A stretch of DNA of 33,686 bases from a virus: positions 1 through 33,686 of IMG/VR virus record IMGVR_UViG_3300028610_002416; one strand, 5' to 3'. This document shows positions 6,462-27,692 of this stretch, piece by piece. The position numbers and the translations under genes are program-made. Each line of letters begins with the position of its first letter. Within the stretch, counting starts at the first letter, position 1. The notes under the pieces were generated by a model. The model did not search any database and was not told where the DNA came from. It worked only from the letters and a program-made list of their open reading frames with translations.

Positions 6462-6484
6462 TATCTGGGGAAATTCCCCAGATA
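6462..6484. repeat. 23-bp perfect palindrome, copy A
   Basis: Two 11-bp arms (TATCTGGGGAA) around a single central base. The same palindrome recurs at 20881-20903 and 27670-27692, where the outermost pair is C-G instead of T-A, so symmetry is kept by a paired change. This copy lies between the portal stop and the capsid gene and ends where the capsid Shine-Dalgarno (6455-6460) begins. It could be a protein-binding DNA site or an RNA hairpin next to the ribosome binding site. Confidence 0.9.
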
Positions 6485-6503
6485 CTAGTTGTCCTCGAAA
6501 TTC

Positions 6504-7928: not shown

Positions 7929-8194
7929 TTTTTCTTCCTCATACACCGCACGTAGGCGAAAACACGCCGACAGCCGCAGTGATCATGGAGTGGCGGATAT
8001 GGCCCGTAGCCGCGCCGGTAAACCTGGCCGTGAAACGACCGGCAGGCATCACAAGTGTTCGACAACATGCGAGCCCGCCACTCCTCAAAATAGATTTTCT
8101 TACAGCCAGGCGGACAAACCTTGCCCTCAGGGAATACCCCACCAGGTCAACCATCTGGCCTCGGTGGCTTCTTGGCCAGCCTATAATCAGCCAT
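7925..8194 (-). CDS. Cys/His-rich head mini-gene interrupted by in-frame TGA
   Basis: An ATG at 8194 has a strong Shine-Dalgarno (GGGAGG about 10 nt upstream) and overlaps the preceding stop, but its frame meets TGA at 8147-8149 after 15 codons (MADYRLAKKPPRPDG). The same frame then stays open for 73 codons to a TGA at 7925-7927: PGGVFPEGKVCPPGCKKIYF, then EEWRARMLSNTCDACRSFHG, then QVYRRGYGPYPPLHDHCGCR. The CxxC/HxxC-rich end resembles the C-terminal tail of phage minor head (Mu gpF-like) proteins. The final TGA overlaps the portal GTG as GTGA, which supports real coding. Either the UGA (followed by C) is read through, or the gene is broken, or there is a sequence error. A 47-residue product from ATG 8068 is a weaker alternative. 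Confidence 0.55.
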
Positions 8195-8624
8195 CGAGCT
8201 TGTACCTCCCCACGCGGTTACGCCGCGCCGTATCCTCAGAGACAGCCGTGATCAATTCGCCGAGCAGCCGCTCGGAGACGCGCAGATGGGCGATGAGTAT
8301 CTGGAGATCGTCGTAGATCTCGCAGGGGACCATATCGGTGATGCCGTCTTTGTAAAGCTCTGTGATGATCCTATCGAGATCACCGCCGATCATTGAGAGA
8401 TCAGTGGCCCGGCCGCCGATCTCGCCCGGATTGCCGTGGTCACCCAGCCAACGCAAATCCTTCGGCAGCGCATAATACGCCTTCACGCCATCATCAGGTT
8501 GCCCAGGATTGCCCAACTCTCCTTCGACTGAATCCAAGCCCCTCTCCTTTAAGTAAGCGTACCATTCGTCCTGCGCAGCAACGCGGGCTGCACGGTCATC
8601 GTGTTCTTTAGCTCCATCCGCCAT
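8187..8624 (-). CDS. Small protein between large terminase and portal
   Basis: 145 residues from ATG 8624 (MADGAKEHDDRAARVAAQDE). This start is preferred because GAGAGG lies 9 nt upstream; a longer frame from 8774 lies deep inside the terminase gene. It overlaps the terminase end by 17 nt. The protein is charged and helical towards the end (ILIAHLRVSERLLGELITAV). No known motif. Not recognised; position suggests a packaging or head-assembly accessory. Confidence 0.65.
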   Translation of the reverse strand: MADGAKEHDDRAARVAAQDEWYAYLKERGLDSVEGELGNPGQPDDGVKAYYALPKDLRWLGDHGNPGEIGGRATDLSMIGGDLDRIITELYKDGITDMVPCEIYDDLQILIAHLRVSERLLGELITAVSEDTARRNRVGRYKLDG

Positions 8625-10251
8625 CGTTTTCATCCTCTCTGCGAATAACCGCGCTCTCCCCGGTCGACAAGAACAGATCCCCGGTGCGTACCAGCCGGTC
8701 CACCTCAGCCACCAGGGCCGCCGACAACAACCGGTCATCGTGAATCGAAATCGATTCACCCGTGGCCTGAACAACGATCTTGGCCGAAGGCTTCACTTCC
8801 CAGCGCAAGCCGCGCTCAATCGGGATGCCCTCAGCGAGTTCGTAGCCGCAGTGTTCGCACTGCGTGAAAAACCACCACCAATCACTAAGCTCATCCTCCA
8901 TCGAACCGGCGAAATAGCGGAAGCGCCCGGTTTCGACGACGGCCAGGAAGTCGTTGCCCAGCCTCGACTTGCCATAGCTTTTCGAAAAATCAAAAGCAAA
9001 AACGGGCTGGGACAGTTTCTCAATGAGGGCGTCGGTGATACCCTGACCCACACCCGTAAAGTCGCTCACCACAGCTACTACACGCCACTTCTGCAAATGA
9101 GCAACAAGCTGATCGAAGAGTGACGGCCGCCCAGGCATAGCCTGGAAATGCCGCGTGCCCTGATCAACCCAACAATCAACCACTTCGTAGGCCGGGCCGA
9201 TGTCGCTCGCCCCGGTGACCACGCGGACAATGGTCAGCGTGGTATAGTCCCGGCCGGCGTTGGCCAACTCCGCAAAGGCAGCGGTAGCCGCTTCATCTTG
9301 GCCGCCGACATCGACCAGGCCCACATATACATCCCCGGCTTGCGGACCATCAAGCCGAGGATGGTTCCCCTGCATCAGTACACGCCGCCGGGGAGGGAAC
9401 AACCCCGCCGCGACGTCAACCGGTTCGTTGAAATACTCGGTCCGAACGATCGGATGCTGCCGGCCGCGTTGCCGAACTTGTCCAGCAACAAAGGCGGAAT
9501 AATGCGCATTTTCAGCGCCAACAGCGTCAGGCGAGACGATGAAGACGCGCTGTTGGCCGTCTTGGGCCTCCAGCTTTTCAAGGCGTTGCTTGGTGCGCCA
9601 CAGGTAATCAGCGGTCGTACGCACGGTGCCGACGTAGAGGGCAGTGGCGTTCGTCGAGGACCGCATCGGCGTGAAGCGCCGTTCAACAGTGGGCTCGTTG
9701 TGGTCCTGCACTTCGTTCACAATGAGCAGCAGGTTAGCCGTAGCGCCTTCGGCCCGGGCCTGGGGGTAGCCAGAGAAAAAGCTACACTGAGCCGAACCCA
9801 AACCGCGCCGGGTGGGCTTTGATTTGCCCCACCATCTGCCGCCCATCCAAAGATTACTCATTCGATTCTCAAGCCTCGATACCCCTACCGAAATCTGAGT
9901 AGCTGTGGGATACGTGTGGATAATCTGTGCCTCCGTGCGATGAAACAACATCAGCAGAAAGGCCAACATCTGCGCTACGGCTTCATCCTTCCCCGATTGA
10001 CGCGGGAAAACCCACAGAAATTCGAGGCCCCGATTCATCAACACCGACTGTATAACCGCGTCAGTTGGCTCAACCTGATAGCGACGAAGCCGGAGCTGGA
10101 TGACCAGCCGCGAAAAGAGATCAATGGAAAACAGAATTTGCCGTAGTTTCTCTTTCATCTCGGTCACATAGGGACACTCGTCACAATGAAGTACAGCAGC
10201 AATAAGATCGCTTCCACAATCGGGACAACAAGAGCCAGCATGAACAGCCAT
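8608..10251 (-). CDS. terL: Terminase large subunit (packaging ATPase-nuclease)
   Basis: 547 residues. Walker A variant PRQSGKDE at 83-90, Walker B LLLIVNEVQD at 174-183, then an RNase H-like nuclease with acidic positions in VGLVDVGGQDEAATAAFAEL, VVAVVSDFTGVGQG and HDDRLLSAALVAEVD. It pumps DNA into the prohead through the portal and cuts the concatemer. Residues 8-26 form a CxxC-x10-CxxC zinc ribbon, unusual at this end. The start at 10251 has GGAGAG 9 nt upstream; a later ATG (10158) lacks one. The first 88 nt therefore overlap, in another frame, the end of a membrane-protein gene. Confidence 0.93.
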   Translation of the reverse strand: MAVHAGSCCPDCGSDLIAAVLHCDECPYVTEMKEKLRQILFSIDLFSRLVIQLRLRRYQVEPTDAVIQSVLMNRGLEFLWVFPRQSGKDEAVAQMLAFLLMLFHRTEAQIIHTYPTATQISVGVSRLENRMSNLWMGGRWWGKSKPTRRGLGSAQCSFFSGYPQARAEGATANLLLIVNEVQDHNEPTVERRFTPMRSSTNATALYVGTVRTTADYLWRTKQRLEKLEAQDGQQRVFIVSPDAVGAENAHYSAFVAGQVRQRGRQHPIVRTEYFNEPVDVAAGLFPPRRRVLMQGNHPRLDGPQAGDVYVGLVDVGGQDEAATAAFAELANAGRDYTTLTIVRVVTGASDIGPAYEVVDCWVDQGTRHFQAMPGRPSLFDQLVAHLQKWRVVAVVSDFTGVGQGITDALIEKLSQPVFAFDFSKSYGKSRLGNDFLAVVETGRFRYFAGSMEDELSDWWWFFTQCEHCGYELAEGIPIERGLRWEVKPSAKIVVQATGESISIHDDRLLSAALVAEVDRLVRTGDLFLSTGESAVIRREDENDGGWS

Positions 10252-12464: not shown

Positions 12465-12653
12465 ATGAGTGACATCATCAGCACCACCGAAGCCGCCGAA
12501 ATACTTGAAGTCTCGCGTCAATGGATCTTACGACTGATCCACGAAGATAAGTTATTGGCCAGGAAGATCGGGCCAACCTTCGCCGTTGACGTCGATTCCG
12601 TCAAGCAGTATCGGCGCGAAGTCCAGAAGAAGAACGACCTGAACGACAACTAA
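12465..12653 (+). CDS. Excisionase-like HTH DNA-binding protein
   Basis: 62 residues: IISTTEAAEILEVSRQWILR, then LIHEDKLLARKIGPTFAVDV, then DSVKQYR. This is the HTH_17/MerR-type fold used by phage excisionases and small regulators. As the first gene behind the strongest promoter in the window, it is a candidate Cro- or Xis-like early regulator. No integrase is visible, so a regulatory role is likelier than excision. Confidence 0.75.
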   Translation: MSDIISTTEAAEILEVSRQWILRLIHEDKLLARKIGPTFAVDVDSVKQYRREVQKKNDLNDN

Positions 12654-12729: not shown

Positions 12730-12981
12730 ATGCAAGCTACCCCTAGTTTACCAAAAATTTTCTTTCGTGTCATATCTCGCTATCGCATCGTCGCCGACGA
12801 CGACCAGCAAGATGAGACACAAGATATTGTCCTCGAGGCCGCAGACGCCAGAGAGGCGGCCGTCTTGGCCATCGCCAAGATCAGCGGGCCATTCATCGCC
12901 AATCTGCGTCTATCGGTGATGATCTCGCATACAAATGGACCAGTGAGCGAGAGAGAGCGGCTCGAAGGGAGGGCCGAATGA
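12730..12981 (+). CDS. Small uncharacterised protein
   Basis: 83 residues, ATG 7 nt after GGAGGT. Beta-alpha layout: KIFFRVISRYRIVADDD, then VLEAADAREAAVLAIAKISG and NLRLSVMISHTNG. Ends in an ATGA overlap with the next gene. Not recognised. Confidence 0.65.
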   Translation: MQATPSLPKIFFRVISRYRIVADDDQQDETQDIVLEAADAREAAVLAIAKISGPFIANLRLSVMISHTNGPVSERERLEGRAE

Positions 12982-13892
12982 CCTTCCCCAGCAAGGCCCT
13001 CACCCTCTTCGACGGTACGCGGACCATCGTCTCCGGCTTCGTCGGAATGATGGAGGGGATATTCACCGACACCGTGACCCGCCTGGCCCCGATCCTGGCC
13101 CCGCTGCCGCCGGCGTTCTCGGTGTATACGGCGATGGCCAAAGCCCAGACGCCGTACTGGATTGCGCTATGTACGGCGTTAGCCGTGGAGCTCATCGGGA
13201 TGTTTAGCTCAAAAGTCGCGATCCAGTCGTGGAACTGGAACCGCAGCCGGCTGAAGACCGAACCTGTTGCGCCCTTCACCTTAACCGTCGCTATGGCGGC
13301 TGTCTACTTCATCGTCGTTCTGGTGCTGGCGCTCTCCATCGAGATATGGACGCAAAGCCTAATCATCCTCTATCCGGGCTTCGTCATCATCGCCGCCGCG
13401 ACCTACGTCAGCAACGCCATCAACGGCGATCTCAGCGCCTGGCAACGCAAACGCAACGAGCGACTCCAACAGCAGAAAGAGAAACGCGGGCTTGGCGCAG
13501 AGATCAAAACGGCCAGAGAACAGTTAGCCGAACTCACCATCGAACTCGAAAAGACGCGCGATGAAACACACGACCTAACCGAAGCGGCCGCCGCCGACCT
13601 CGAAACAATACGCACCGAAACAGCCGACCTGACCGAAGCGGTTGCCCGGCTGAAGGCGCAGAAGCGACGCCTCAACGCAACACCAGCCACCACCACCACC
13701 GACACCACCGAGCAGGCCCGCGTCATTCTGACCGAAGTATGGCGCAACGGTTCGGATATTTCCGGGGCAGAGTTGGGGCGACAACTAAAGCGAAGTGGCA
13801 CCCTGGGACGAAAATTGAAAAACGAATTGTGGCCGGAGATCAGCGCGGGCGCAACTAACGGCGTAGCGGAGACGAACGGAGTGACGCAATGA
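12978..13892 (+). CDS. Membrane protein with coiled coil and C-terminal HTH
   Basis: 304 residues. Membrane segments: about 56-75 (TPYWIALCTALAVELIGMFS), 98-118 (FTLTVAMAAVYFIVVLVLAL) and 124-145 (IWTQSLIILYPGFVIIAAAT). Then a long coiled coil (about 153-235; RERLQQQKEK-type, LAELTIELEKTRDETHDLTE) and a winged-helix-like end (ARVILTEVWRNGSDISGAEL, GRQLKRSGTLGRKLKNELWP). The plan of membrane helices followed by an HTH resembles DUF2637/SpdB-like proteins of actinobacterial conjugative plasmids; I infer a similarity in layout only. It may tether DNA or the nearby FtsK-like ATPase to the membrane. Confidence 0.7.
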   Translation: MTFPSKALTLFDGTRTIVSGFVGMMEGIFTDTVTRLAPILAPLPPAFSVYTAMAKAQTPYWIALCTALAVELIGMFSSKVAIQSWNWNRSRLKTEPVAPFTLTVAMAAVYFIVVLVLALSIEIWTQSLIILYPGFVIIAAATYVSNAINGDLSAWQRKRNERLQQQKEKRGLGAEIKTAREQLAELTIELEKTRDETHDLTEAAAADLETIRTETADLTEAVARLKAQKRRLNATPATTTTDTTEQARVILTEVWRNGSDISGAELGRQLKRSGTLGRKLKNELWPEISAGATNGVAETNGVTQ

Positions 13893-14158
13893 ATGATCCT
13901 GAATGCCCACACTGCAACGCAGCGATAGACTATTATTTCGAGGATACCGAAGACGAGTGGACCATCCTCACCCCCCACACCCACGAACTTACTCACGAGT
14001 GCGAACGAGGATGCACCGAGATCAGCGAACTAGAAACCGTTATCGATTGCCGTAATTGCGGAGAGGATATCTACCTCAGTTGCACGTATTACCAACCGTG
14101 CAACGCCAATGGGTACGTTGTAGCACTCGAGTTAAAACCTAGCGGGGTGGCGCAATAA
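13889..14158 (+). CDS. Small multi-Cys zinc-binding protein
   Basis: 89 residues; ATG overlaps the previous stop and has GGAG 7 nt upstream. Cysteines are arranged as CPHC near the N terminus, CERGC in the middle, then CRNCGEDIYLSC and C near the end, consistent with two zinc ribbons. Acidic between them. Probably a protein- or nucleic-acid-binding accessory; no family recognised. Confidence 0.65.
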   Translation: MNDPECPHCNAAIDYYFEDTEDEWTILTPHTHELTHECERGCTEISELETVIDCRNCGEDIYLSCTYYQPCNANGYVVALELKPSGVAQ

Positions 14159-14424
14159 TAACCACGAAACTGATCGCAGCAATCGCAGACAAAGAGAACA
14201 AACAGCGTGACATCGCGGAGATGTACCAAGCCGCATTTAACAAAATCCCTGACGCCGACTGGCGCAAGGTGAATACCGCCATCGCCAAACGCTGGCCCTC
14301 GAAGTCAGGGCTCGTTCGAGTAAAGACAATGGCCTGGAAGATTTACAAAGAGAGGCGCCACCCGCCACCAGGCGGTCAAAATAAAAACGGCTCAGGCGTT
14401 AGGGCGCCTGAGCCAACCACCTGA
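14158..14424 (+). CDS. Small basic protein with probable ATA start
   Basis: The frame overlaps the previous stop as TAATA, giving (ATA)TTKLIAAIADKENKQRDIAE, then MYQAAFNKIPDADWRKVNTA and IAKRWPSKSGLVRVKTMAWK. GGGGTGG lies about 8 nt before the ATA. The first ATG in frame is 14221, with no properly spaced ribosome binding site and a helix cut in half. 88 codons from ATA, 67 from ATG. A 10-bp hairpin overlaps the 3' end. Function unknown. Confidence 0.5.
   Translation: MTTKLIAAIADKENKQRDIAEMYQAAFNKIPDADWRKVNTAIAKRWPSKSGLVRVKTMAWKIYKERRHPPPGGQNKNGSGVRAPEPTT
14389..14414. terminator. Strong hairpin without U-tract
   Basis: Perfect 10-bp stem GGCTCAGGCG/CGCCTGAGCC around a 6-nt loop, inside the last codons of the preceding gene. 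No T run follows, so it may stabilise the mRNA 3' end or weaken read-through before the gene at 14492. Confidence 0.5.
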
Positions 14425-14491
14425 CTGAGAGCATAGCAAAAAAACAGGTGGTTCAACAATTATATATCAGTTTAATAAAGGAGCATAGCAA

Positions 14492-15016
14492 ATGTCTAAG
14501 AAGATCACGATGAACAAATTACAAACCAAACACATAACTATTGATGATTTACAGTTTATTTACAAGCCCCAACAAGGGGCTATAGCGGTGATCCAACGTG
14601 ATGGCGTCGCCGGGATGATGGAAATAGACACCCTAGTGCCCCCCCTATTATCTCAATTAGTCGGCAGACCTATTCAGGATTTCAGCGTAATCCGTCGCCG
14701 TAGTAGTGGCGGCGTATTGGCGGTCGCTTTTTCTCCCATCCTCCAAGGGGACCCAGTTTTGCCAGTTCCCATTAACTGCCCATCACTGCTCTATCCGCGT
14801 TCGTTCGTTGGCACAATGCGGAAATTTTCGGATCACATTTTGTCGTTGGGGAATCGCTATAATAACCCCGACCTGGCTGAATGGTACAGAGACGGAGAGC
14901 TTTTTATTGAGGACGTGCTGGATAATATCAACTTGCTCAGACTAAATCATTTTGATCGTTTCACATTCGAATTAATTATCAAAACAACTTTAGCGCAACC
15001 TTTCCGCACCGATTGA
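14492..15016 (+). CDS. Uncharacterised 174-residue protein
   Basis: ATG with AAGGAG about 10 nt upstream. Soluble, beta-rich first half (HITIDDLQFIYKPQQGAIAV ... DFSVIRRRSSGGVLAVAFSP) and helical second half (AEWYRDGELFIEDVLDNINL). No recognised motif. AT-richer than its neighbours and preceded by its own AT-rich leader (14450-14480), so it may be a separate transcription unit or a recent acquisition. Confidence 0.65.
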   Translation: MSKKITMNKLQTKHITIDDLQFIYKPQQGAIAVIQRDGVAGMMEIDTLVPPLLSQLVGRPIQDFSVIRRRSSGGVLAVAFSPILQGDPVLPVPINCPSLLYPRSFVGTMRKFSDHILSLGNRYNNPDLAEWYRDGELFIEDVLDNINLLRLNHFDRFTFELIIKTTLAQPFRTD

Positions 15017-15040
15017 AAGGCTGAAACAACCGGACTGGCT

Positions 15041-15358
15041 ATGAAGAAGCTCTTCTACGAAATCACCGTCATCGACCTCCCCACCGGCCAATGGCGCCCC
15101 CACCGCCCCTGGCCCCTCCGCCTGGCCCGGGCGGTCTGGGGCCTGCTGGTTGCGCTGCTATTCACCGCGATGCGCATCGAGTACGCGATGCACGCAGTGG
15201 CCGCGTCGTTGCTGACCACCACCGAGGCAGTGGCCGGCGCGATTCGCGTAGTGGCCACGGCGGGCCGGGTGGCGCTGGGGGTGATCGTAGACGACCTGGC
15301 TTATGAGGTGGGGCGGGTGATTGTAGAGGATCGGCTGGCGGGGGTGGCCTGTGCCTAA
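15041..15358 (+). CDS. Membrane-associated small protein
   Basis: 105 residues. A basic region (QWRPHRPWPLRLARAVW) leads into a hydrophobic helix (GLLVALLFTAMRIEYAMHAV) and a long Ala/Val-rich helix (LTTTEAVAGAIRVVATAGRV ... VIVDDLAYEVGRVIVEDRLA). Weak ribosome binding site. Overlaps the next gene by 8 nt. Not recognised; may belong to the membrane complex with the ATPase downstream. Confidence 0.55.
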   Translation: MKKLFYEITVIDLPTGQWRPHRPWPLRLARAVWGLLVALLFTAMRIEYAMHAVAASLLTTTEAVAGAIRVVATAGRVALGVIVDDLAYEVGRVIVEDRLAGVACA

Positions 15359-15557
15359 TTTGCAAACAATAGGATATTTGAAAATAAACGATCAAGTCAT
15401 CCTAATCCTTGCCCGACAGAAGAAGACCAGCCGAGCTTTAAAACTCAGAAAAGGCGGCGGTGCGCTCGGAGCATATTTTGAGGATGAGTCTATTTTCCTG
15501 AGAGATGAGCCCGCTTTGCTTGAGCAATTACGAGATGGCGGCGTCATCTACATATAA
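15351..15557 (+). CDS. Small uncharacterised protein
   Basis: 68 residues from GTG 15351, with GGGGTGG a few nt upstream. Basic beta-rich body (LQTIGYLKINDQVILILARQ, KKTSRALKLRKGGG) and acidic C-terminal helix (DEPALLEQLRDGGVIYI). Not recognised. Confidence 0.55.
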   Translation: MPNLQTIGYLKINDQVILILARQKKTSRALKLRKGGGALGAYFEDESIFLRDEPALLEQLRDGGVIYI

Positions 15558-15575
15558 GAAGAGAGGAAGTAGTCT

Positions 15576-15893
15576 ATGCCTGAGAAACTATCACCCACAC
15601 AGCAGGAGATGTTAGAGTGGCTAGAAGCCGGCAACTACGTAGACCTAGCCGGGAACTACGCACTGAGAAAAACAGGCGGACGTTGGATGAAAAATACGTT
15701 GATGTCTCTGGTAAATCGGGGCCTGGCCACAACCGTCGTCAAGAACGGCTGGAGCTACAAAGCCACCACCATTGAACCAGGCGGCAATTGTCCACTATGT
15801 TGGACCGGCTCCATTGAAGAAATAGAGGAAGGTCATTATTCCTGCAATAATGATCCTTGCCATTTCGAGTATCAAAGGGAATCGAATGGATGA
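15576..15893 (+). CDS. Winged-helix plus zinc-ribbon protein
   Basis: 105 residues, GAGGAAG 6-8 nt before the ATG. Residues 1-65 look like a winged helix (SPTQQEMLEWLEAGNYVDLA ... MKNTLMSLVNRGLATTVVKN), followed by a zinc ribbon (CPLCWTGSIEEIEEGHYSCN, ending C). A small DNA-binding regulator is likely. Overlaps the ATPase gene start by 8 nt. Confidence 0.6.
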   Translation: MPEKLSPTQQEMLEWLEAGNYVDLAGNYALRKTGGRWMKNTLMSLVNRGLATTVVKNGWSYKATTIEPGGNCPLCWTGSIEEIEEGHYSCNNDPCHFEYQRESNG

Positions 15894-17283
15894 GATAACC
15901 AAACCAACGCCAATCAAAGCCAACACCATCCTCCTCATCGTCCTAGCCCTCATCGCCCTCATTGGCCTCCTGGCCGCCTGGGACGCACTGACACGCTACG
16001 GCGTTATCATCGCCGCCGTCTACGCGGCCGCCGCCATCCTGAGCGCGGCGGCCTGGACAGTGGCCGTCATCGTGCGCGTGGGTTATGGCCTTAGTCGTGT
16101 CCGCAGCGATCACCGTCTTAGCCAGGCTGAAGCTAACGCTCAGCAAATCGCCATTGTCGACCAAATAAAGCTGACCGAGACCCGAATGCTGACCGAAAGC
16201 CGGCAGCTAAAAGCGTCAGCCCGGAAGGCCGAGCGGGAAGCAGACCTGTTCATCGTCACCGCCAAACGCGATGAACAAGTGTTGATCAGCGACGGCGATA
16301 GTACACGGCGGTTCACCGCCGCGCATCTCCAACTATCCGGCCAGGTCAACGGCGTTCAAATCCCGGCGACGCCAGAGCAGATCAAAGCCTGGGCCGCGTG
16401 GCACGGGCCGCGATCGCAGAGCACACCGGCGTTGGTGCAGGAGATTGCGCCGGCCGAGACGTTGCCGTTGTTGCCGGCGCTGGCAGACTGCGATAATATT
16501 TTGATTGTCGGTGGCAAAGGTTCAGGTAAAACTACGCTCCTGCAGTGGTTCGAGGCCGAACGCATCCAGAAAGGGCCAGTCATTGTACTGGACAGCCACG
16601 CCGAACCAGGGCAATGGTTCAGTCAAGTAATTGGCGCTGGCCGGAAGTACAGCAAGATCAAAGACGCTATGATCGCCCTGATCAACAAAATGGACAAACG
16701 CCACCAGCGACGCACCCAAGGCCACAAGAATTTTACGCCGATCTGCACCATTATCGACGAGTTTACCTTGTTGCCCGGCTACCTGAAGGAGCTAGGTTAC
16801 AAGTCGCAGACATATTCATTTCCAATGCTGACGGAGGGCAGAAAAGTTGAAATGTCGTGTTTGTGGGGCATCCATAGCGACCGGGTCAAGGCCACAGGCT
16901 TCGAGGGAATGGGGGATCTAAGAGAGTGCTTCGACGCCATTGCCTATCTAAAGCACGTCAAGGGGAACTACTACGCCCTAGTCGATTTCGGCGAAGGGAA
17001 AGAGGATATCCATTATATCCCGCCCGGCCCCTTCTTCGTCCAGCCAGCGCCACCGGCCGCCGAAGATTTGCTATCGTTGCCCGATGAACCGGAGGAACCG
17101 GAGCCAACCAGTACCAACGCCTACGACCCCGACCAGGCCGAACAAATCAGATCAATGTATAATGACGGCAAGACAAAAACAGAAATAGCCCAATCGTTCG
17201 GCTACAACTCGAACGAAGGAGCCATTTTCTACAAAATCAAAGCAGCCCTAGAAGCCGCAGAAACCGCTACTACTACTACATAG
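15886..17283 (+). CDS. Membrane-anchored FtsK/HerA-type P-loop ATPase
   Basis: 465 residues from ATG 15886 (AAAGGGA upstream, overlapping the previous stop). Two membrane helices at about 13-31 and 37-62, then a coiled region, Walker A GGKGSGKTT at 209-217, Walker B CTIIDEF at 287-293, and a C-terminal HTH-like region (DQAEQIRSMYNDGKTKTEIA, QSFGYNSNEGAIFYKI). This plan fits the FtsK/TraB/T4CP superfamily of membrane DNA pumps used in chromosome segregation and conjugation. It is distinct from the packaging terminase. In a phage this is unusual and suggests plasmid-type DNA transfer or segregation (inference). Confidence 0.8.
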   Translation: MDEITKPTPIKANTILLIVLALIALIGLLAAWDALTRYGVIIAAVYAAAAILSAAAWTVAVIVRVGYGLSRVRSDHRLSQAEANAQQIAIVDQIKLTETRMLTESRQLKASARKAEREADLFIVTAKRDEQVLISDGDSTRRFTAAHLQLSGQVNGVQIPATPEQIKAWAAWHGPRSQSTPALVQEIAPAETLPLLPALADCDNILIVGGKGSGKTTLLQWFEAERIQKGPVIVLDSHAEPGQWFSQVIGAGRKYSKIKDAMIALINKMDKRHQRRTQGHKNFTPICTIIDEFTLLPGYLKELGYKSQTYSFPMLTEGRKVEMSCLWGIHSDRVKATGFEGMGDLRECFDAIAYLKHVKGNYYALVDFGEGKEDIHYIPPGPFFVQPAPPAAEDLLSLPDEPEEPEPTSTNAYDPDQAEQIRSMYNDGKTKTEIAQSFGYNSNEGAIFYKIKAALEAAETATTTT

Positions 17284-17327
17284 GCCCTACAGGCCCTGAA
17301 ACGGCGATCTATCGCCGTAGTAGTAGC
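17266..17327. repeat. Nested inverted repeats after the ATPase gene
   Basis: Outer arms GCTACTACTAC / GTAGTAGTAGC (11 bp, 17266-17276 and 17317-17327) enclose an inner hairpin GGCGAT-CT-ATCGCC (17303-17316) and a doubled GGCCCT. The left arm encodes the poly-Thr end of the ATPase. Likely a transcript end structure or protein site; no U-tract. Confidence 0.6.
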
Positions 17328-17332
17328 GCGCT

Positions 17333-18106
17333 GTGAACGTAAGAAACAAAGAGAGGATCCTTAATAACCGAATGGAGAAACTAAGAACCTTTTGGAGTGA
17401 CCACACGCCGACCGGCCACTGGGCGCTCGGCTGGCTGGCCGCGCACCTGGTGATCATGGGCCTGGTGACTGCGTCGCCAGTGGCGCTGCAGCGCATCGGC
17501 CTCAGCACGTTGGCCGTGGCGCTGTGCTACGCGCTGGCCAGGCGCGGGCACGAGACGATAGCGGCGGTGTCGCTGTGCGTTGTCCTCAGCGCCAATTTCC
17601 ACCTGTCGGCCATCGCAAATTATTCGCGAGGCGACCTGCATCTGTACAGCGACAACCTGGTCGTTTTCTCGGCCATCGTGTTGCTAATGGCCGGCCACAC
17701 GCTCGGCCGGCAGATGATCCTGATCACCGCCGCCGGCAATAGCCTGATCTTATTGGTCAGCCAGGCCCGGCTGGGGGCAGATGAAACGATCATTTTGTAT
17801 CTGGTGGCGGCGGCGGGCATCTACTACCACCGCAGCCAGCAGGAGCGACAAACCGAGCCGCACAAGCCCCAGGGCCTCATCACCCGCCACATCGAACGCG
17901 GCGGCTACATCGCCATCCGCCTGGAGACGGTGCGCGGCGAGGTGCTGCAGGTCCGGGTGGCCAAAGCGTACTGGGCCACACTCGGCCTAAATCGCGGGAA
18001 CCGGATCATCATTGACCAATATGAAATCCGGGCGGAGAACGGCCGGCAATATATTCAGGCGTTCGTTCTCCACTCCATTCGGAAAGTTGACCAGAGCCGA
18101 GAATAA
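17333..18106 (+). CDS. Multi-pass membrane protein with C-terminal soluble domain
   Basis: 257 residues from GTG 17333; ATG 17372 (MEKLRTFW) is an equally plausible start and neither has a good ribosome binding site. Five or so membrane helices (GWLAAHLVIMGLVTASPVAL, LSTLAVALCYALARRG, IAAVSLCVVLSANFHLSA, LVVFSAIVLLMAG, ILITAAGNSLILLVSQ, IILYLVAAAGIYYHR), then a basic beta-rich domain (GLITRHIERGGYIAIRLETV ... RVAKAYWATLGLNRGNRIII). No known family. With the ATPase and the coiled-coil membrane protein it may form an envelope complex. Confidence 0.6.
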   Translation: MNVRNKERILNNRMEKLRTFWSDHTPTGHWALGWLAAHLVIMGLVTASPVALQRIGLSTLAVALCYALARRGHETIAAVSLCVVLSANFHLSAIANYSRGDLHLYSDNLVVFSAIVLLMAGHTLGRQMILITAAGNSLILLVSQARLGADETIILYLVAAAGIYYHRSQQERQTEPHKPQGLITRHIERGGYIAIRLETVRGEVLQVRVAKAYWATLGLNRGNRIIIDQYEIRAENGRQYIQAFVLHSIRKVDQSRE

Positions 18107-18140
18107 ATTTATAATGATTATACATTGCACCACTCATCAC

Positions 18141-18228
18141 AAACAGCCCCGCGCCTGCGCGGGTCGACTGTGCGTATCGCACTCCGCAGCAATGCGGCTC
18201 CTGTATACAGGAGATAGTCTCGCTGTTT
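18141..18228. other. Four-armed hairpin cluster (structured RNA or origin element)
   Basis: A 7-bp closing stem (AAACAGC at 18141-18147 with GCTGTTT at 18222-18228) encloses four consecutive hairpins: 18148-18163 (CCCGCG/CGCGGG), 18170-18182 (GTGCG/CGCAC), 18184-18197 (CCGCA/TGCGG) and 18198-18213, a perfect 16-bp palindrome CTCCTGTATACAGGAG. It lies in the 472-nt gap before the initiator gene. tRNA features (T-loop, junction spacing) are absent. Candidates are a structured ncRNA, a plasmid-type single-strand origin, or a protein-binding cruciform. Confidence 0.6.
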
Positions 18229-18249
18229 TCACATCGCAAGCAAGAAACC

Positions 18250-18272
18250 GGGCTACTCGTAGCCTGATTTTT
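18250..18272 (+). terminator. Terminator-like hairpin
   Basis: GGCTAC-TC-GTAGCC stem followed by TGATTTTTG. A larger hairpin with a 10-bp stem (GGCCCGGTGG/CCACCGGGCC, 18315-18355) follows. The rest of the 18107-18578 gap is AT-rich before the initiator gene and holds no gene I can see. Confidence 0.5.
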
Positions 18273-18578
18273 GTCTGTACCTGAAAACGGCGAGTTTTTC
18301 GTTTAAAAATCTACGGCCCGGTGGAATTGGCGGCTAACCTTTCCCCCACCGGGCCATCACCGGGGCTTAACCCGTATGCAAACGCGCTGAGCGCGGCTTT
18401 GCCTATTTCATTTCCCCCCTCACCACCCCCCGTGGTTTTGTCCCCCCAAGCAACACAAATGACTCTTACTATTCTAATCCGACGTGCTAAGAGCCATTTG
18501 TTAAAAACAATGATATGAGCATTGTAGCACAACCCTGCACACAATTCAAACAATTCATTGGCCGAAGAGGTCCGATCT

Positions 18579-19373
18579 ATGACCAACCCTGACCCCAACC
18601 CTAACCCCTGGCCCGACGCACTCGAGATTTTGCGCACCACCACCACCAAAGCGACTTTTGACACCTGGCTGGCCAACACCACGGCCACCGTGAACGACGA
18701 CGGCAGCCTGACCATCCACGTCAAGAACAACTACGCCATCGGCTGGCTGGAGAACAATCTCCGCAAGCCGATCAGTCGCGCCCTGGCGGGCGTCACCGGC
18801 CAAGAGCTCGATATCCGCTATGAAGTCGGCGGCGGCCCGGAGCCGGAGCCGGAGCCACGCGCCAGGCCGGAGCCGGGGCCGGGGGAGTTTAGCGTGGAAT
18901 TGATCTCGTTTGATCCAGCGCATTGGGGCCACGTCATCACGCAACGCTACACGCTGGTGTTTTGGCAGCCGTTGCTCGGCTTCAGCTTCCAAGTGTGGGT
19001 CACCCTCCGCGCCTTCGCCTGGAATTTCGAGACCGAGGGCTGGCCGACGATTGAGCTACTGGCCGACATCTGCGCCAACGGCAACCGCCACCGGCTGACA
19101 GGGCGCAATGAGCGCGTCGACCGCAAGCCGCAGGTGGGGGCGCTGGAAATCTTGGCCAAGGCCAGGATCATCCACGTCAGGACCGAGGGCAAGGGCCGCA
19201 AGACGCAGTATTATTTCCGCGTGCTGGACAATCTTCCATTGCTCACGCCGCGCCAGGTCGAGGAACTGACACCGGCGCTACAGCAGCGCCACAAAGAGTG
19301 GCTGTGGAAATGCTCGATTGACTATGAGGAGTGGGAGCAGTTGGACTTTGGAAGCCTAATTGAGCCTGAATAA
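18579..19373 (+). CDS. Replication initiator: DnaA-N domain plus winged helix
   Basis: 264 residues from ATG 18579 (AGAGG 8 nt upstream; the TTG at 18558 is not supported). Residues about 10-85 match the DnaA N-terminal domain: WPDALEILRTTTTKATFDTW, then LTIHVKNNYAIGWLENNLRK and a following beta strand. A Pro/Glu-rich linker (PEPEPEPRARPEPGPGE) leads to a winged-helix region (VTLRAFAWNFETEGWPTIEL, LLADICANGN, GALEILAKARIIHVRTEGKG) and a C-terminal tail. No AAA+ domain is present. The iteron array starts 9 nt after the stop, the classic layout of an initiator and its origin. Confidence 0.78.
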   Translation: MTNPDPNPNPWPDALEILRTTTTKATFDTWLANTTATVNDDGSLTIHVKNNYAIGWLENNLRKPISRALAGVTGQELDIRYEVGGGPEPEPEPRARPEPGPGEFSVELISFDPAHWGHVITQRYTLVFWQPLLGFSFQVWVTLRAFAWNFETEGWPTIELLADICANGNRHRLTGRNERVDRKPQVGALEILAKARIIHVRTEGKGRKTQYYFRVLDNLPLLTPRQVEELTPALQQRHKEWLWKCSIDYEEWEQLDFGSLIEPE

Positions 19374-19376
19374 TTG

Positions 19377-19525
19377 CCTTGTGTCCGGGACACATCGCTT
19401 ATGTCCCGGACATAAGGAACCACGAGTCACTTATGTCCGGGACATAAGGAGCTAAAAATTCGCTTATGTCCCGGACACATCGGGCTTATGTCCGGGACAC
19501 ATCGGGCTTATGTCCCGGACATAGC
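19377..19525. repeat. Six-iteron array (putative replication origin)
   Basis: Six copies of an 11-bp core TGTCC[G/C]GGACA centred at 19387, 19407, 19439, 19472, 19494 and 19516, most embedded in CTTATGTCCGGGACATAAG. Each is nearly palindromic; the middle base is G, C, G, C, G, C, so copies alternate in orientation. Centre spacings are 20, 32, 33, 22 and 22 bp, i.e. two or three helical turns, putting all on one DNA face. Placed between the initiator gene and an AT-rich segment, this is best read as the initiator's binding array; a partition site is the alternative. Confidence 0.88.
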
Positions 19526-19561
19526 TAATATAAAAGAATAAAGATATAAGCTTATTATAAT
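19522..19561. other. AT-rich segment beside iterons (candidate unwinding element)
   Basis: Forty bases with only seven G or C directly after the last iteron, ending in TATAAT (19556-19561). It may be the DNA unwinding element of the origin and also hold the -10 box for the following gene, though no good -35 is visible. Confidence 0.6.
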
Positions 19562-19580
19562 GAAGAAAGGAATCGATTCT

Positions 19581-19874
19581 ATGAAGCACACGTTTTACAT
19601 AATAGCAAAAGTATTCGACTGTCGACCCAACGGCCGCATAGCTAGAAACTACTCCGGCAAGGCAATAACAGAATACCTCACCACACCTATCGAAGCAGAA
19701 ACCCTACGAGAGGCTGAACTTCTCGCAAAGGACATCATTGATGACATCGGCTACGATTGGCTAAAGACCAAGATCTGCTCCGAAGCAGAGCGGATGTGGG
19801 ACAGCGGATACCCAGCTTTCTTTGACCTAAAAGCACTCGAAGGGACCAGGCGCCTGAAGGGGGTGGCTCAGTGA
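19581..19874 (+). CDS. Small uncharacterised early protein
   Basis: 97 residues from ATG 19581 (AAAGGA 9 nt upstream; ATG 19560 is inside the AT-rich segment). Layout: beta strand (HTFYIIAKVFDCRPNGRIAR), then helices (EAETLREAELLAKDIIDDIG, WLKTKICSEAERMWDSGYPA). Overlaps the next start as GTGA. Not recognised. Confidence 0.6.
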   Translation: MKHTFYIIAKVFDCRPNGRIARNYSGKAITEYLTTPIEAETLREAELLAKDIIDDIGYDWLKTKICSEAERMWDSGYPAFFDLKALEGTRRLKGVAQ

Positions 19875-20194
19875 GCAAAAACAATCCCCATACCATCACC
19901 ATCCACCACGAAGGACGTCGAACGGAATGGCGAGCCATTTTCGGAACAGATACCCTGCCCATCAAGGCACCCATCCCACACTACGATACCTTACCCGGCG
20001 CCCCGAATGCCCTCGTCTACGAGGTTGATCTCAACGCCATCACCGCTGATCAGCGCCAACGCCTAATAGCCCACACCGCCACAAAGTTTGGATACTCAAC
20101 CGAGTTTGTCGAGGAAAATTTAGACAAACTCGGAATGCCAGTGCTGGCCAACGACGTAACAATGACCAGCACTCAGATAGGACTATTGCTATGA
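19871..20194 (+). CDS. Small uncharacterised early protein
   Basis: 107 residues from GTG overlapping the previous stop. HTITIHHEGRRTEWRAIFGT, then PNALVYEVDLNAITADQRQR, LIAHTATKFGYSTEFVEENL. No motif recognised. ATGA overlap with the next gene. Confidence 0.6.
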   Translation: MSKNNPHTITIHHEGRRTEWRAIFGTDTLPIKAPIPHYDTLPGAPNALVYEVDLNAITADQRQRLIAHTATKFGYSTEFVEENLDKLGMPVLANDVTMTSTQIGLLL

Positions 20195-20409
20195 CCGAAA
20201 CCCGCCCCCGCTACCACCCCCACCGCCCTCACATCAAATATCCAGGCAGTCGCCTCGAAGTCCTGGTTGAATGCCTAGACGAACTAGCCGAGCTCGCCCC
20301 TGATGCCTACCCGCTTCGTGTGAATGCCATCCACACCGCATTACGATCCACGCTCGAAGGCGAGATCGGGCCAACAAAATTGCTGGCGTATTTGATGAGC
20401 AGCGCTTGA
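20191..20409 (+). CDS. Small helical protein
   Basis: 72 residues, overlapping its neighbour by 4 nt. His/Arg/Pro-rich N terminus (TRPRYHPHRPHIKYPGSR) and a helical body (LEVLVECLDELAELAPDAYP, LRVNAIHTALRSTLEGEIGP). Directly before the parB-like gene. Not recognised. Confidence 0.55.
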   Translation: MTETRPRYHPHRPHIKYPGSRLEVLVECLDELAELAPDAYPLRVNAIHTALRSTLEGEIGPTKLLAYLMSSA

Positions 20410-20450
20410 CCCACATAAACCAAGATTTGCAAAATGAACAAGGAGGAACG

Positions 20451-22319
20451 ATGTTAATGAAACTCTATAGTGACCTAAAACATAACCTAACCGTGATCCA
20501 ATCCCGCGCCGAAATGAACTATGATCTCGTAGACGAGTACGCCGCCGAGATGAAACGCGGCACAAGCTTCGATCCGGCCGAGGCCATTTACGATCACGAC
20601 GAAAATCACTATTATGTCTACAATGGCGCTCACCGTATCGAGGCAATGCAAAAAGCCGATGTAGGCCTACATATCAGCTTCAAAAACGGCTCCAGGGCCG
20701 ACGCGGAGTGGCTCAGCTTCAGCGCCAACACCAAACACGGCCTGCGACGCAGCCGCGCCGACAAGCAGCGCGTGACCAAAAATGCGCTACTCACCCGGCC
20801 ACACCTCAGCGACCGGGAAATCGGAAAGCACTGTAACGTCGATCACAAGACGGTGGGCAAACTCCGGGCAGACCTCGTTGCATCTGGGGAAATTCCCCAG
20901 ATGGACGAGCGAACCGTCACAAGGAACGGGAAGACGTTTACGCAGGCGGCCAGGGAAGAGCCTGAATATATGAGTAAGGCAGACATCGAACAGTCAATCC
21001 AAGCTTGGCTGAAGGACCGCCCGCCAGAATTACACCTGGAAATCCTGGCCGACATTGCCCGAAAAAACGAGGATGGCCAACGCTACTATGGAAGCATACT
21101 CAAGGCTATGCCACTAGTATACATTGAGGCCAACGTTTGGACAACGTGCCTCGCAATGTTAGAGCAGATGAAAGCGGCCAAGGCGGAGCCGGAGTATGCC
21201 ACCATCCCCCAGCTCGAGAAGGGCGTCCGGGCCTGGCTCGATGGCAAATGGTACAAAGCCCCAAAAGTACATATAGAGGTTCTGGGCGACATCAAAAACA
21301 AAACAGTTAAAGGACCGGTACGCCTACAGGGACTGGTCAACGACGACATCCTACCCGGCCCGCGACGGAAACGCGATGTAATACAGGCCTGCAATAACGT
21401 GCTGGACCAGATAAAGCAGCGCCAATGGCAGCAAGAGCGCGAAGACCTCATCTCTGCACTGATCTGCATCAACTGCGACGAGCAGACCATTGAGGCCATT
21501 GACAGCAACTCCATCCACTGCACGACCTGTGGCGACGAGTGGACTTCCGTAGTCGCCTTTGAACGCGAGAAAGACGCCTACCAGACCACCCGCGAAAACA
21601 TCACCCCAATCTCCCACGCCAAGCCGTGCCCACAGTGCAGCGGCAAAGTCTTTTACGGTAAAAGCGCCCGCCTCGATTGCAAGAAGTGCAAGAAAGGCTG
21701 GCCAACCGAAAACGAGTTCCTAGCGGACATGGATAGGCTTTGGCGCAGTGGATCGTTTGAAACGCAGGAGACCGCCGAGGCCGACCGCGACGCCGAGACC
21801 CAAGCCGCTCCCCCCGCCAACCAACCCATCTTCGCCCGCGTCCCCTGCCCCAAGTGCAACGAAATGAAGATCGAAATCAAGCCAATCGAAGATTCGGTCC
21901 TTTGCCACCACTGTAAGCAAAGTTGGAATACTATGGCCGCATTCCACAAAGAACGAATGGCACCCCGGACGGCATCCGCGCAACCCATTGCGGAGATGCC
22001 GACAGGGGACCAGGCCGAAGCCCCAGAGGAACCCACCCCCGACCCCGACCGTTGCGACGCTTGCACCGCCCGCGACTTTTACGAGCCGGAGGTCTGGGTC
22101 AAGCAATACACACAACACATCTGCCCACAGTGCCTACAAGAATTAGGCGCGGCAATGATAGCGGCGGCCAGCGAAAACAACGAACCCCCCAAAGGTCTGT
22201 CCCCACGGACAGACTTTAGCAGGCGACTGAGAGAGATTGCCTGGAAAGTCCCGGATGAAGACCTGAAAACCCTTCAGACCTGGATTGAAACAATGGAGTA
22301 CAAATATCATATATCATAA
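20451..22319 (+). CDS. ParB-like protein with four zinc ribbons
   Basis: 622 residues from ATG 20451 (AGGAGG 4 nt upstream; the open frame reaches back to 20406 without support). Residues about 1-110 form a ParB/sulfiredoxin-like domain (FDPAEAIYDHDENHYYVYNG, AHRIEAMQKADVGLHISF, then SFSANTKHGLRRSRADKQRV). An HTH follows (LSDREIGKHCNVDHKTVGKL). After two related helical blocks come zinc ribbons from about residue 339 on: CINC/CTTC, CPQC/CKKC, CPKC/CHHC, CDAC/CPQC. ParB proteins bind palindromic centromere sites. A 23-bp palindrome lies inside this gene. No ParA is seen. Host-shutoff or transcription roles are alternatives. Confidence 0.75.
   Translation: MLMKLYSDLKHNLTVIQSRAEMNYDLVDEYAAEMKRGTSFDPAEAIYDHDENHYYVYNGAHRIEAMQKADVGLHISFKNGSRADAEWLSFSANTKHGLRRSRADKQRVTKNALLTRPHLSDREIGKHCNVDHKTVGKLRADLVASGEIPQMDERTVTRNGKTFTQAAREEPEYMSKADIEQSIQAWLKDRPPELHLEILADIARKNEDGQRYYGSILKAMPLVYIEANVWTTCLAMLEQMKAAKAEPEYATIPQLEKGVRAWLDGKWYKAPKVHIEVLGDIKNKTVKGPVRLQGLVNDDILPGPRRKRDVIQACNNVLDQIKQRQWQQEREDLISALICINCDEQTIEAIDSNSIHCTTCGDEWTSVVAFEREKDAYQTTRENITPISHAKPCPQCSGKVFYGKSARLDCKKCKKGWPTENEFLADMDRLWRSGSFETQETAEADRDAETQAAPPANQPIFARVPCPKCNEMKIEIKPIEDSVLCHHCKQSWNTMAAFHKERMAPRTASAQPIAEMPTGDQAEAPEEPTPDPDRCDACTARDFYEPEVWVKQYTQHICPQCLQELGAAMIAAASENNEPPKGLSPRTDFSRRLREIAWKVPDEDLKTLQTWIETMEYKYHIS
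20881..20903. repeat. 23-bp perfect palindrome, copy B
   Basis: Arms CATCTGGGGAA/TTCCCCAGATG around one base, inside the parB-like gene just after its HTH codons. The inner 21 bases are identical to copy A (6462-6484), and all but the centre to copy C (27670-27692). Being kept inside coding DNA argues for selection on the site. Confidence 0.9.
22192..22217. repeat. Hairpin inside the parB-like gene
   Basis: GTCTGTCC-CCAC-GGACAGAC, extendable by AAAG/TTT, near the 3' end of the gene. GGACA recalls the iteron core but the dyad is different. It may attenuate or stabilise the mRNA. Confidence 0.45.
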
Positions 22320-25162: not shown

Positions 25163-25785
25163 GGGGAAATTTAGGAGGCTGCGGTTTGGGGCTATTTGCT
25201 CCGGAGCAAAGGCTCTCTGCTCTTGTGGCTGGGTGGGAACGCTTTGCGCAGGGCGATGCACCATATAGGGCGAAGGGGAAGCCGGACTTTAAATCAACCC
25301 CCTTTAGCAGGAGTTCACTTTTTCCGCAAGCCGTCTGTTAAAAACAAATGAATCGCAAGGCAAACTATTCAAAATAAAAGCGGCCTAAACTGCAGGCCGC
25401 CGGGCGCACAAAGTCACTTTTTATTAAAGAGAGTCCCGTCAGCAAACTCACTTTCCATTCAGCCATCCTCGCTGCGCCCGAACGCCGCCTAAACTACAGG
25501 CGGCTAGGGGGAGTACCCCCATCGGGTCGTATCGCCCAGGCGAGTCGGGGTCGGGGTCGGGGCGCTAACTTGCTATTCAAACTCACTTTCAAATAACAAA
25601 TTCACTTTCAATTCTGCCCCGCCCTCCTTCCTCCTCCTCGCCTGTCCGCCGCCCTCCCCCCCCTTTTTTAAAAAATCTTTGAAGCAGCGGCTGGCTTCCC
25701 GGTGCAGCTCCTTTCCCAAACAACTAAGGACACCTCTTATTTATGCCGCCCCTCCGCCCCGGCATCCCACCCAAGGAACCAAAAA
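25163..25785. other. Non-coding region with dyads and TCACTTT repeats
   Basis: No credible gene. It holds a perfect 16-bp palindrome TTTGCTCCGGAGCAAA (25195-25210), five copies of TCACTTT (25315, 25414, 25448, 25583, 25602), GGGTC-type short tandem G-runs near 25543-25562, and two related hairpins at 25380-25400 and 25484-25504. It leads into the A-depleted tract. Appears regulatory or structural rather than coding. Confidence 0.6.
25380..25504. repeat. Twin hairpins with covarying stems
   Basis: 25380-25400 has arms GCGGCCT/AGGCCGC with loop AAACTGC; 25484-25504 has arms GCCGCCT/AGGCGGC with loop AAACTAC. Loops are nearly identical while stem bases differ in matched pairs, so base-pairing has been kept. 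Candidate RNA hairpins or protein-binding dyads. Confidence 0.6.
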
Positions 25786-25796
25786 GCGTGGTGGTC

Positions 25797-25827
<31 letters not shown>

Positions 25828-26006
25828 CTCTGCCCCCTGGCCGCCGTCTGGTCGTGGCGGGGTGCGCTCCGCGTCGTCCGTTGCCGCGTGCCGTTTGCGT
25901 TGTTGCTTGTGGCGTGCCGTTGCTCCTGCTCGCTGCCTCGGTGTGTGTTGCCCTCCGCCCTTGGGGCGTGGGGGGCGGGCTTCCGGTGTCGTTTTTCTTT
26001 ACGATA

Positions 26007-26041
26007 TTTTAATGTGACGTTAATGTTCGCGTTGTATACTG
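26007..26041 (+). promoter_or_regulatory. Promoter-like element within the A-depleted tract, copy 2
   Basis: TTTTAATGTGACGTTAATGT, then TCGCG and TATACT (26035-26040). Similar to the element before the HTH gene (24693-24727). It sits in the only A-containing island and points into the 1.4-kb A-poor stretch, so it would drive an RNA made almost solely of G, U and C. Confidence 0.5.
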
Positions 26042-27669
26042 TTAGTGTTGGTGGGTGGCGGGGTTGTCCCTCCGCCCGGTCTCTCTCTCGTGGGGGTGCT
26101 TCGTGGCTCGTCTTGGCTTGGTTCCGTCCTCTCTCCTCTCTTTCCTTCGTTCGCCCGCCGTCGCCGGCGTGGCTTCCGTGTCGGCCTCGCCGGCCGGTTG
26201 GGCCTCCGTGTCTTTTCGTGGCCCTGGTTCCGTGGCCTCCGCCGCCGTGGCCGTCCGTTGGGCCCGTTGGTTGGGCCTGTCCGCCCTCGTCGGGTTTGTT
26301 GGCCCGCTTGGTTCGTCGGGCGTGGGCTCGTGGGTCGTGGTCGTTTCCGCCGCGCCTCGCGTGTGCGTGTTCGGTTGCGCCGCTTCCTTGTCCGTTGGCG
26401 TGGCCGCGTCCTGGTCCTCTCGTGCCGGCCGTGGTGGCCTGGTTTGGTTTTAGTTGGCTTGGTTTTTCGGCCCGCGCCGGGCGGTTCCCGGCTTTCTCTT
26501 TCGTGGGGGTGTCTCGTGTCCGTTGCTCTTTCTTCGTCTGTTTGGTCTTCTCGCCGGGTTGCCGGTTCCGCCGTTGGTTCTGGCGCCTCTCGTTGGGCCG
26601 TTCGTTCCTCCTCGCGCTCTGTTTCGGGCGCCGTCTTGGTGGCCGGTTTCGCGTCGTGGGCCGCCGCCTCTGCGTTTTCGCGCCGTTGGTCTGGCCGGTT
26701 GCCTCGCCGTTGTCGTGGCGCCGTTGTCCGCCGCCGGCCGTCTGGCCTGTTCGCGGTTTCTGTCCCCGTCGCCGGTGTGGGGGGGGTGCTTCGTGGCCGT
26801 TAGCCTTGTCGGGTTTTGTGGTTCGCGCTCCCTCCCCGCCGGGGGGGGAGCTGTGGCGGCCCGGCTTGTTTCCGCCGTCGCCGTCTCCGGCCGCGGCGTT
26901 GCCGTTGGGTGCTGTGTCGGCGCCGATCAGGCCGTCCTTGTTGCCGCTCCTCCGGCCTCGTTGTCCGTGTTCGCCGCCTTTGGGTCTGGGTCCGCTTGGG
27001 GGCCTGGGTCTGGCGCTCCCGGTGTTGGGTCTGGCGCTCCTGGTGCCTGCTCTTTGTCCGCCGTTGGTTCGGTCTGTCTGGTCGGGCGTTCTGGCGCTTC
27101 CGTGTCTTGGTGGGCCGGTGGTGGGCCTGGCGTCCCTCTGCGCGCGCGCCTGGTCGGGCGCTCTGTGGCCTTGGTTCGCGCGGTTGCCGCCTCCGGGCCA
27201 GCCGCCGCCTTCGTGGGCCTGGTCGCCTCGCCCTGCCCGGCGGGGTTGTCGCCGTCGCCGTCGTGGTCGTCGTGCGGCTCCGGTTCGTGGTCGTCGTTGG
27301 CGCTGGCCGCTGGCCTTGGGCTGTTTGTCGCCGTTTTTCCCGTGCTGGCTCCCGGCGCTCCTTTGCCGTCGTCGTTCCTGCCTGCTTGGCCTGGTGGTGC
27401 GTGGGTGCCGGTTGCCGCGCGGCCCGGCGTCCCGGCCGGCTCTGGGTGGGCCTGGTCGCCCTGCCAGCCGTCGCTCTTTTAGCCGGCTTGGTTTCGGCGG
27501 GGCGGGCTTCGTGCCCGTCCCGCGCGGAGGAGAGCGGCCCGTTAGAGCCTGGGCCGCCGCGCGCGCAGCCTCACCTTTAATTTAGGCTGGTTGCGTTTGC
27601 CAAGGCGCTCCCAGTTCGGGCGTAGTGCGGAGCGCGCAATGAGGTTGTAAGGGCATTTGCACCCTTCAC

Positions 27670-27692
27670 CATCTGGGGAATTTCCCCAGATG
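27670..27692. repeat. 23-bp perfect palindrome, copy C
   Basis: Arms CATCTGGGGAA/TTCCCCAGATG with central T (copies A and B have A, i.e. the other strand's base). It lies in the 390-nt non-coding gap between the A-depleted tract and the gene at 27871. Confidence 0.9.

Follow-up and report, generated by a model that had tools for sequence, protein, structure and literature searches.

The integration module of class A actinophages is substituted by ParABS in about 20% of cases (PMC11652158), and transfer by a single FtsK-like protein is the established mechanism of the actinomycete integrative and conjugative elements (AICEs), which a 2011 survey of actinobacterial genomes found restricted to one order (PMC3218068). 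Here we analyze a 33,686-base tailed phage, the entire IMG/VR record IMGVR_UViG_3300028610_002416 (the window), whose early region carries a replication initiator (Rep) with iterons, a ParB-like gene and a membrane ATPase cassette. With a probability of roughly 55%, we consider it a phage-plasmid in which integration has been replaced by maintenance through Rep with its iterons and the ParB-like protein with its sites, accompanied by an FtsK/TraB-like translocation cassette. If so, the exchange of integrase for partition that is known in actinophages would extend to phages of Chloroflexota, and would there be accompanied by a membrane DNA-pump cassette otherwise known from integrative elements and plasmids.

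Like the class A actinophages (PMC11652158), the window is a tailed phage without integrase, with its own replication gene, a ParB-like gene with probable sites, and close relatives that bear an integrase. It differs from them in that no ParA was found, in the DnaA_N type of its Rep, in its membrane ATPase cassette and in its host phylum, Chloroflexota. The pattern of absent integrase and present module is the one known from these actinophages, but here it is seen in a single lineage. The phage-plasmid N15 has ParB-type sites scattered round its genome, and so, probably, does the window, with one probable site upstream of the capsid gene; the title of a work cited in PMC11652158 ties the N15 sop genes to late gene expression. 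The N15 genome is a linear molecule that ends in telomeres and encodes SopA, whereas the window has no ParA and gives no sign of telomeres.

The resemblance to AICEs (PMC3218068) lies in the relatives of the window cassette in host genomes, where genes for an FtsK/HerA-like ATPase and a DUF2637-type membrane protein occur together with a recombinase gene and a replication gene; the phage itself has no recombinase, a different Rep and an ATPase that falls under the FtsK cut-off. Small cyanobacterial plasmids of the pDU1 type are likewise small replicons, and their P-loop ATPase is related to that of the window, with about 28-34% identity in a portion of the motor, but they have no phage genes and their other genes differ. 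Finally, plasmids of cyanobacteria and Chloroflexota carry ParB-like (StrR-like) genes that share with the window gene a ParB-like domain, a helix-turn-helix (HTH) and a long intragenic palindrome just after the HTH. The palindromes of these plasmid genes differ in inner sequence and no extra site copies are shown there; since these genes often adjoin biosynthetic genes, they are perhaps regulators. A literature search for StrR sites inside the strR gene itself gave nothing useful.

Replication initiator, ParB-like protein and palindromic sites

The earlier note had read positions 12978-22319 as a plasmid-like set of five genes, encoding a coiled-coil membrane protein (CC304), an ATPase, a second membrane protein, an initiator and a ParB-like protein. 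We confirmed all five together with six iterons, and found the whole module in identical gene order in a sister phage (IMGVR_UViG_3300025970_000009; 31,560 bases). Identity between the two phages is 82% for the terminase, 71-74% for CC304, 48-51% for the ATPase, 44-48% for the multi-pass membrane protein, 73% for Rep and 49% for the N-terminal part of the ParB-like protein. The five genes are not chance open frames, since the sister encodes each of them in the same order at 44-74% identity.

The observation that no integrase was in view holds for the full circle: neither the tyrosine (PF00589) nor the serine (PF00239) family has a match in the window or in the sister. Among 14 related IMG/VR contigs examined, nine matched PF00589. 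Pfam searches of thirty early window proteins and 29 sister proteins gave no ParA, relaxase or integrase, and none of the three was found in the essentially complete window genome or in the sister. Two integrase-carrying relatives (G007 and G008) have Rep, and neither ParB nor the ATPase in the stretches examined. In the second of them, Rep and a CC304-like gene (3e-22) adjoin a tyrosine recombinase (L159, 8013-11038), again with no ATPase in the stretches examined.

Rep (18558-19373, plus strand, start codon uncertain) consists of a DnaA N-terminal domain (DnaA_N, PF11638, E 1.3e-8, over the Pfam cut-off) and a C-terminal DNA-binding-like domain, and it matches a PHROG replication initiation protein (2.5e-10). 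It is also 45% identical to the Rep of the relative L013. AlphaFold2 was confident in the DnaA_N part only. The replication families RepSA, RepAM and Prim-Pol were absent from the early proteins by Pfam, Rep being of the DnaA_N type, and a search for this Rep in plasmids gave no match. Directly 3' of the stop codon stand six palindromic iterons, TTATGTCCSGGACATAA (about 19376-19527, plus strand); the sister also has six, and a similar array follows the Rep of L013/L100. Thus a plasmid-type initiator with iterons, as looked for in a phage-plasmid, is present in the window and kept in both the sister and L013.

The ParB-like protein (20406-22319, plus strand, start codon uncertain) has a ParB/Srx-like N-terminal domain, an HTH and a zinc-ribbon-rich C-terminal part. 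It matches PHROG 1033, 'ParB-like partition protein' (9.7e-8), and its plasmid homologues are annotated as ParB, RepB or Spo0J. The window contains three perfect 23-bp palindromes around ATCTGGGGAAWTTCCCCAGAT. The first, CATCTGGGGAAATTCCCCAGATG, is inside the ParB-like gene (20881-20903); the second, TATCTGGGGAAATTCCCCAGATA, lies between the portal and capsid genes, just upstream of the latter (6462-6484; about 7815-7837 in the sister); the third, CATCTGGGGAATTTCCCCAGATG, is downstream of an A-depleted tract (27670-27692; 26800-26822 in the sister). All three homologous places are occupied in the sister, one in slightly decayed form, and shuffled genomes contained on average 0.04 palindromes of such quality. 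These palindromes and their linkage to ParB are new relative to the earlier note, and they change the limits of the module, as only the first falls within the region proposed there.

A blind palindrome scan of all IMG/VR contigs (2.9 million viral contigs) with the query TCTGGGGAAWTTCCCCAGA returned ten contigs. In nine of them, including the sister, the palindrome is inside a gene homologous to the window ParB-like gene, directly after the HTH and at the same codon position, where it encodes S-G-E-(I/F)-P-Q. One of these genes (L097) immediately follows a gene that its sequence identifies as ParA. In the tenth contig (L093, 9880-9898), the palindrome is in a gene for a 2145-aa virion-type protein with a ParB/Srx-like stretch, and again encodes SGEIPQ. 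On plasmids of cyanobacteria and Chloroflexota, four ParB-like genes (L103, L104, L106, L108) hold a perfect 23-25-bp palindrome at the same gene position (about 4380-4402); the outer TATCT..AGATA is common to them, and the inner sequence differs in each. A ParB-like gene on a host contig (L133, 7374-8309) carries a 15-bp core of the window palindrome after its HTH; another palindrome, CATCTGGCGAATTTCGCCAGATG, lies farther along the gene.

The same position combined with a different inner sequence is as expected for a binding site that diverges along with the protein recognizing it, and the palindrome is very likely the binding site of the ParB-like protein. The simplest reading of the comparison is that this family holds its own predicted binding site within the gene, with the HTH and the site evolving in concert. 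The target of such a ParB could then be read from its gene, given the fixed codon position and varying inner sequence of the probable site. Alternatively, the palindromes might be RNA hairpins or terminators without any link to ParB, as the intergenic location of two of the three would allow. We regard this as very improbable, given that one palindrome is intragenic, that nine of the ten database matches are inside ParB-like genes, and that remote plasmid genes keep a palindrome of different inner sequence in the same place.

A membrane ATPase cassette shared with Anaerolineae elements

The P-loop ATPase of the window (15850-17283, plus strand) is composed of two N-terminal transmembrane (TM) segments, a coiled-coil linker, a HerA/FtsK-like motor and a C-terminal HTH. 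A profile search with this protein matched 21 of 298 Anaerolineae genomes, and the strongest matches (E 1e-44 to 1e-59, in five genomes) have the same layout of two TM segments, linker, motor and C-terminal HTH. Their genes are typically arranged in the order (HTH_17), DUF2637-type membrane/coiled-coil/HTH protein, ATPase, and serine or tyrosine recombinase, with the last three seen in this order in L124, L126, L130 and L153-L155. Frequent neighbors are a RepA-like AAA protein, an XRE-type repressor or a ParM-like actin. The DUF2637 domain scores above its cut-off in L124, L126, L130 and L132, and proteins with this domain occur in 12 of 396 Anaerolineae genomes; on a Streptomyces plasmid, a DUF2637 protein adjoins mobilization genes.

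Two of the host loci, L132 and L133, have a true FtsK_SpoIIIE motor above the cut-off (2.4e-15 and 3.3e-9), preceded by an N-terminal part of the type described above, and the linker of the L132 ATPase matches that of the window (hhalign E 1.7e-11). At L133, the end of a 1.55-Mb host contig, a ParB-like gene, an FtsK-type ATPase, a ParM-like actin and a DnaA_N-type Rep are found in one region. Outside the Anaerolineae, tblastn revealed a likeness of the motor to plasmid-encoded ATPases of Nostoc (pDU1), Tolypothrix, Pseudanabaena and Annamia. Among viruses, IMG/VR yielded no relative in a pattern search based solely on the ATPase, and tblastn found none in phage records. A search of the PDB with profiles of an enlarged ATPase alignment gave P-loop matches only (FtsK and TrwB at E 0.01-0.03), and these were not taken as evidence for a family.

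The second cassette protein, CC304 (12978-13892, plus strand), combines hydrophobic, presumably membrane-embedded stretches with a coiled coil and a C-terminal HTH-like domain. Its homology to the DUF2637-type proteins of the Anaerolineae elements (hmmsearch 4.6e-18) is confined to residues from about 205 to 300. We dropped an assignment of CC304 to DUF2637 (PF10935) itself, as neither the window nor the sister gave a match even at E 1 and the likeness covers only the C-terminal coiled coil and HTH. By sequence comparison, the window ATPase and the C-terminal part of CC304 are thus homologous to the cassette of predicted Anaerolineae integrative elements that resemble actinobacterial AICEs. 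We read the module as a plasmid-style set joined to an FtsK-like pump because the Anaerolineae elements match the AICE composition and the phage has both the ATPase of their cassette and a related membrane/HTH protein. The Anaerolineae cassette would in turn take FtsK-type, AICE-like elements beyond Actinobacteria.

Compared by part with the sister (L009, 907-2322), the ATPase is 68% identical in the TM segments and linker, 35% in the motor and 68% in the C-terminal HTH. A motor so much more divergent than its flanks, where some relatives have a HerA-like motor and others a true FtsK motor, suggests that the motor may have been exchanged inside a conserved frame.

A small HTH_17 protein (12465-12653, plus strand; Pfam HTH_17, 9.1e-7) stands at the head of the module, and in the host-genome elements L124, L132, L154 and L155 a gene of this type likewise lies ahead of the cassette. 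Between CC304 and the ATPase, a small TM protein is predicted from hydropathy (15041-15358, plus strand; 40% identical in the sister). For the multi-pass membrane protein with a soluble C-terminal domain (17333-18106, plus strand), no relatives were found beyond the sister. An Anaerolineae locus (L129, 1-13377) has the ATPase gene together with genes for a serine recombinase, a RepA-like AAA protein and the small subunit of a terminase (PF25673, 1.3e-23), and is possibly a phage satellite that uses the same cassette.

Possible roles in plasmid maintenance, segregation and transfer

As a phage-plasmid, the 33.7-kb phage would have given up integration and would be kept as a free circular replicon. 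Rep would bind the iterons next to its own gene and start replication, while the ParB-like protein would load at the three palindromes, organizing and segregating the replicon; with no ParA from the phage, segregation would need a host ParA or membrane machinery. CC304 and the HTH-tailed ATPase with its two TM segments would together make up an FtsK/TraB-like DNA pump fixed in the membrane, which the phage would have acquired from integrative elements of its host bacteria or would have in common with them. Such a pump could keep the phage DNA at the septum or elsewhere on the membrane, and move it there.

Several points weigh against this proposal. No ParA-type ATPase was found among the early proteins of either phage, and no recognizable repressor, addiction module or toxin-antitoxin pair was found among the early proteins. 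Integrase loss and module gain, seen in only two sister phages, count as one evolutionary event. The extrachromosomal state is probable, although circular extrachromosomal sequence was not directly seen. The earlier note had called the ATPase a membrane-anchored FtsK/HerA protein; it has a P-loop and two TM segments, but it scores 14.5 bits against a Pfam cut-off of 24 for FtsK (FtsK/SpoIIIE, PF01580), a threshold reached only by relatives in host genomes that share its linker. AlphaFold2, run on the ATPase from two sequences, gave a predicted local distance difference test score of 37, so that the structure was not predictable. In addition, ParB-like genes with the same site occur in replication modules that lack ParA and appear to be lytic (L095, L096), and the ParB-like gene alone is therefore no proof of plasmid life.

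These last modules, in which the palindrome-bearing gene stands beside SSB-like, RusA-like and recombinase-like genes (named from sequence), also favor a different view, that of an ordinary lytic or pseudolysogenic phage. Rep and the iterons would then be a lytic origin, the ParB-like protein a regulator of replication or late genes that binds its own gene and two further places, and the membrane proteins anchors of the replication center. The site just upstream of the capsid gene would fit such a role, as would the lack of a repressor, toxin-antitoxin pair or ParA. On the other hand, the lineage is temperate, judging from its commonly integrase-bearing relatives, and the ATPase cassette is common to integrative elements and plasmids but not to known phages. 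We therefore consider the lytic view unlikely, though deserving serious weight. Our estimate for the phage-plasmid is limited chiefly by the missing ParA and repressor and by the occurrence of comparable ParB-like genes in lytic modules. Overall, the earlier interpretation is partly supported: the Rep with iterons, the ParB-like protein with probable sites, the lack of an integrase in an essentially complete genome whose relatives commonly have one, and a cassette common to cyanobacterial plasmids and Anaerolineae integrative elements speak for it, but no ParA, relaxase or recognized repressor was found.

Within the phage-plasmid reading, two purposes of the pump can be distinguished, and both are compatible with it. 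The cassette may serve mainly segregation and anchoring, the FtsK-like ATPase pulling or clearing plasmid copies at the septum and the ParB-like protein marking them, with no transfer between cells. Relaxase and mating-pair genes are absent, the membrane anchor and C-terminal HTH fit septal action of the FtsK type, and ParB-like and ParM-like genes adjoin the same ATPase type in the host elements L125 and L133. Most host loci, however, have the ATPase with a recombinase and without ParB or ParM, as an AICE transfer gene would be, and we give this purpose a little less than an even chance.

The other purpose would be that of a TraB-like conjugative pump, passing double-stranded phage DNA between neighboring cells of a filament. 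Anaerolineae are typically filamentous, and the plasmids with ATPase cousins belong to the filamentous genera Nostoc, Tolypothrix and Pseudanabaena. The composition of the host elements, with an FtsK-like Tra protein, a recombinase and a replication gene, is that of the FtsK-type integrative and conjugative elements of Actinobacteria (PMC3218068), and the Streptomyces plasmid described above places a DUF2637 protein beside mobilization genes. The window ATPase, however, is only distantly FtsK/HerA-like, DUF2637 is not detectable in the membrane part of CC304, and we regard the proposal, made by analogy, as improbable. The conjugation-like movement suggested earlier might occur, the argument for it being the likeness of the cassette to FtsK/TraB-type transfer cassettes. 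The combined scenario, in which the phage has a plasmid life beside its virions and its naked double-stranded DNA passes from cell to cell between or along Chloroflexota filaments through an FtsK/TraB-like pump, appears slightly less probable still.

Genome ends, host and an A-depleted tract

Although IMG/VR classes the record as linear, its ends join in frame. The minus-strand frame running from 2023 to 2 stays open via bases 1, 33686 and 33685 into the fiber frame 33684-31936, so that the N-terminal (1-2023) and C-terminal (31936-33686) parts form one tail-fiber gene on the minus strand; the same protein is a single 982-aa frame in the sister. The genome is therefore essentially complete and circularly permuted, with a few bases, in multiples of three, possibly missing at the junction. 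Matches to terminase, portal, capsid/protease and fiber identify a tailed phage, and the genes for the major capsid/protease, portal and terminase large subunit lie at 4323-10251 on the minus strand.

All six matches of the window terminase in cellular genomes are to Chloroflexota, several of them Anaerolineae, and the host is thus most likely a (probably filamentous) Chloroflexota bacterium, probably of the Anaerolineae. One chromosome (CP070811.1) was considered as evidence of integration and was not used, as it contains only a terminase fragment beside runs of N.

A very unusual tract of 1.76 kb (25781-27540, plus strand) contains 1.5% A, compared with 23% genome-wide, and includes one run of 407 bases with no A at all; since every stop codon needs an A, the long open frames in the tract are spurious. 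The palindrome at 27670-27692 sits just beyond its end. The sister has the same tract at 25301-26800, with an A-free run of 561 bases, and a similar A-poor tract (3% A) occurs at 111-1130 of the relative L032.

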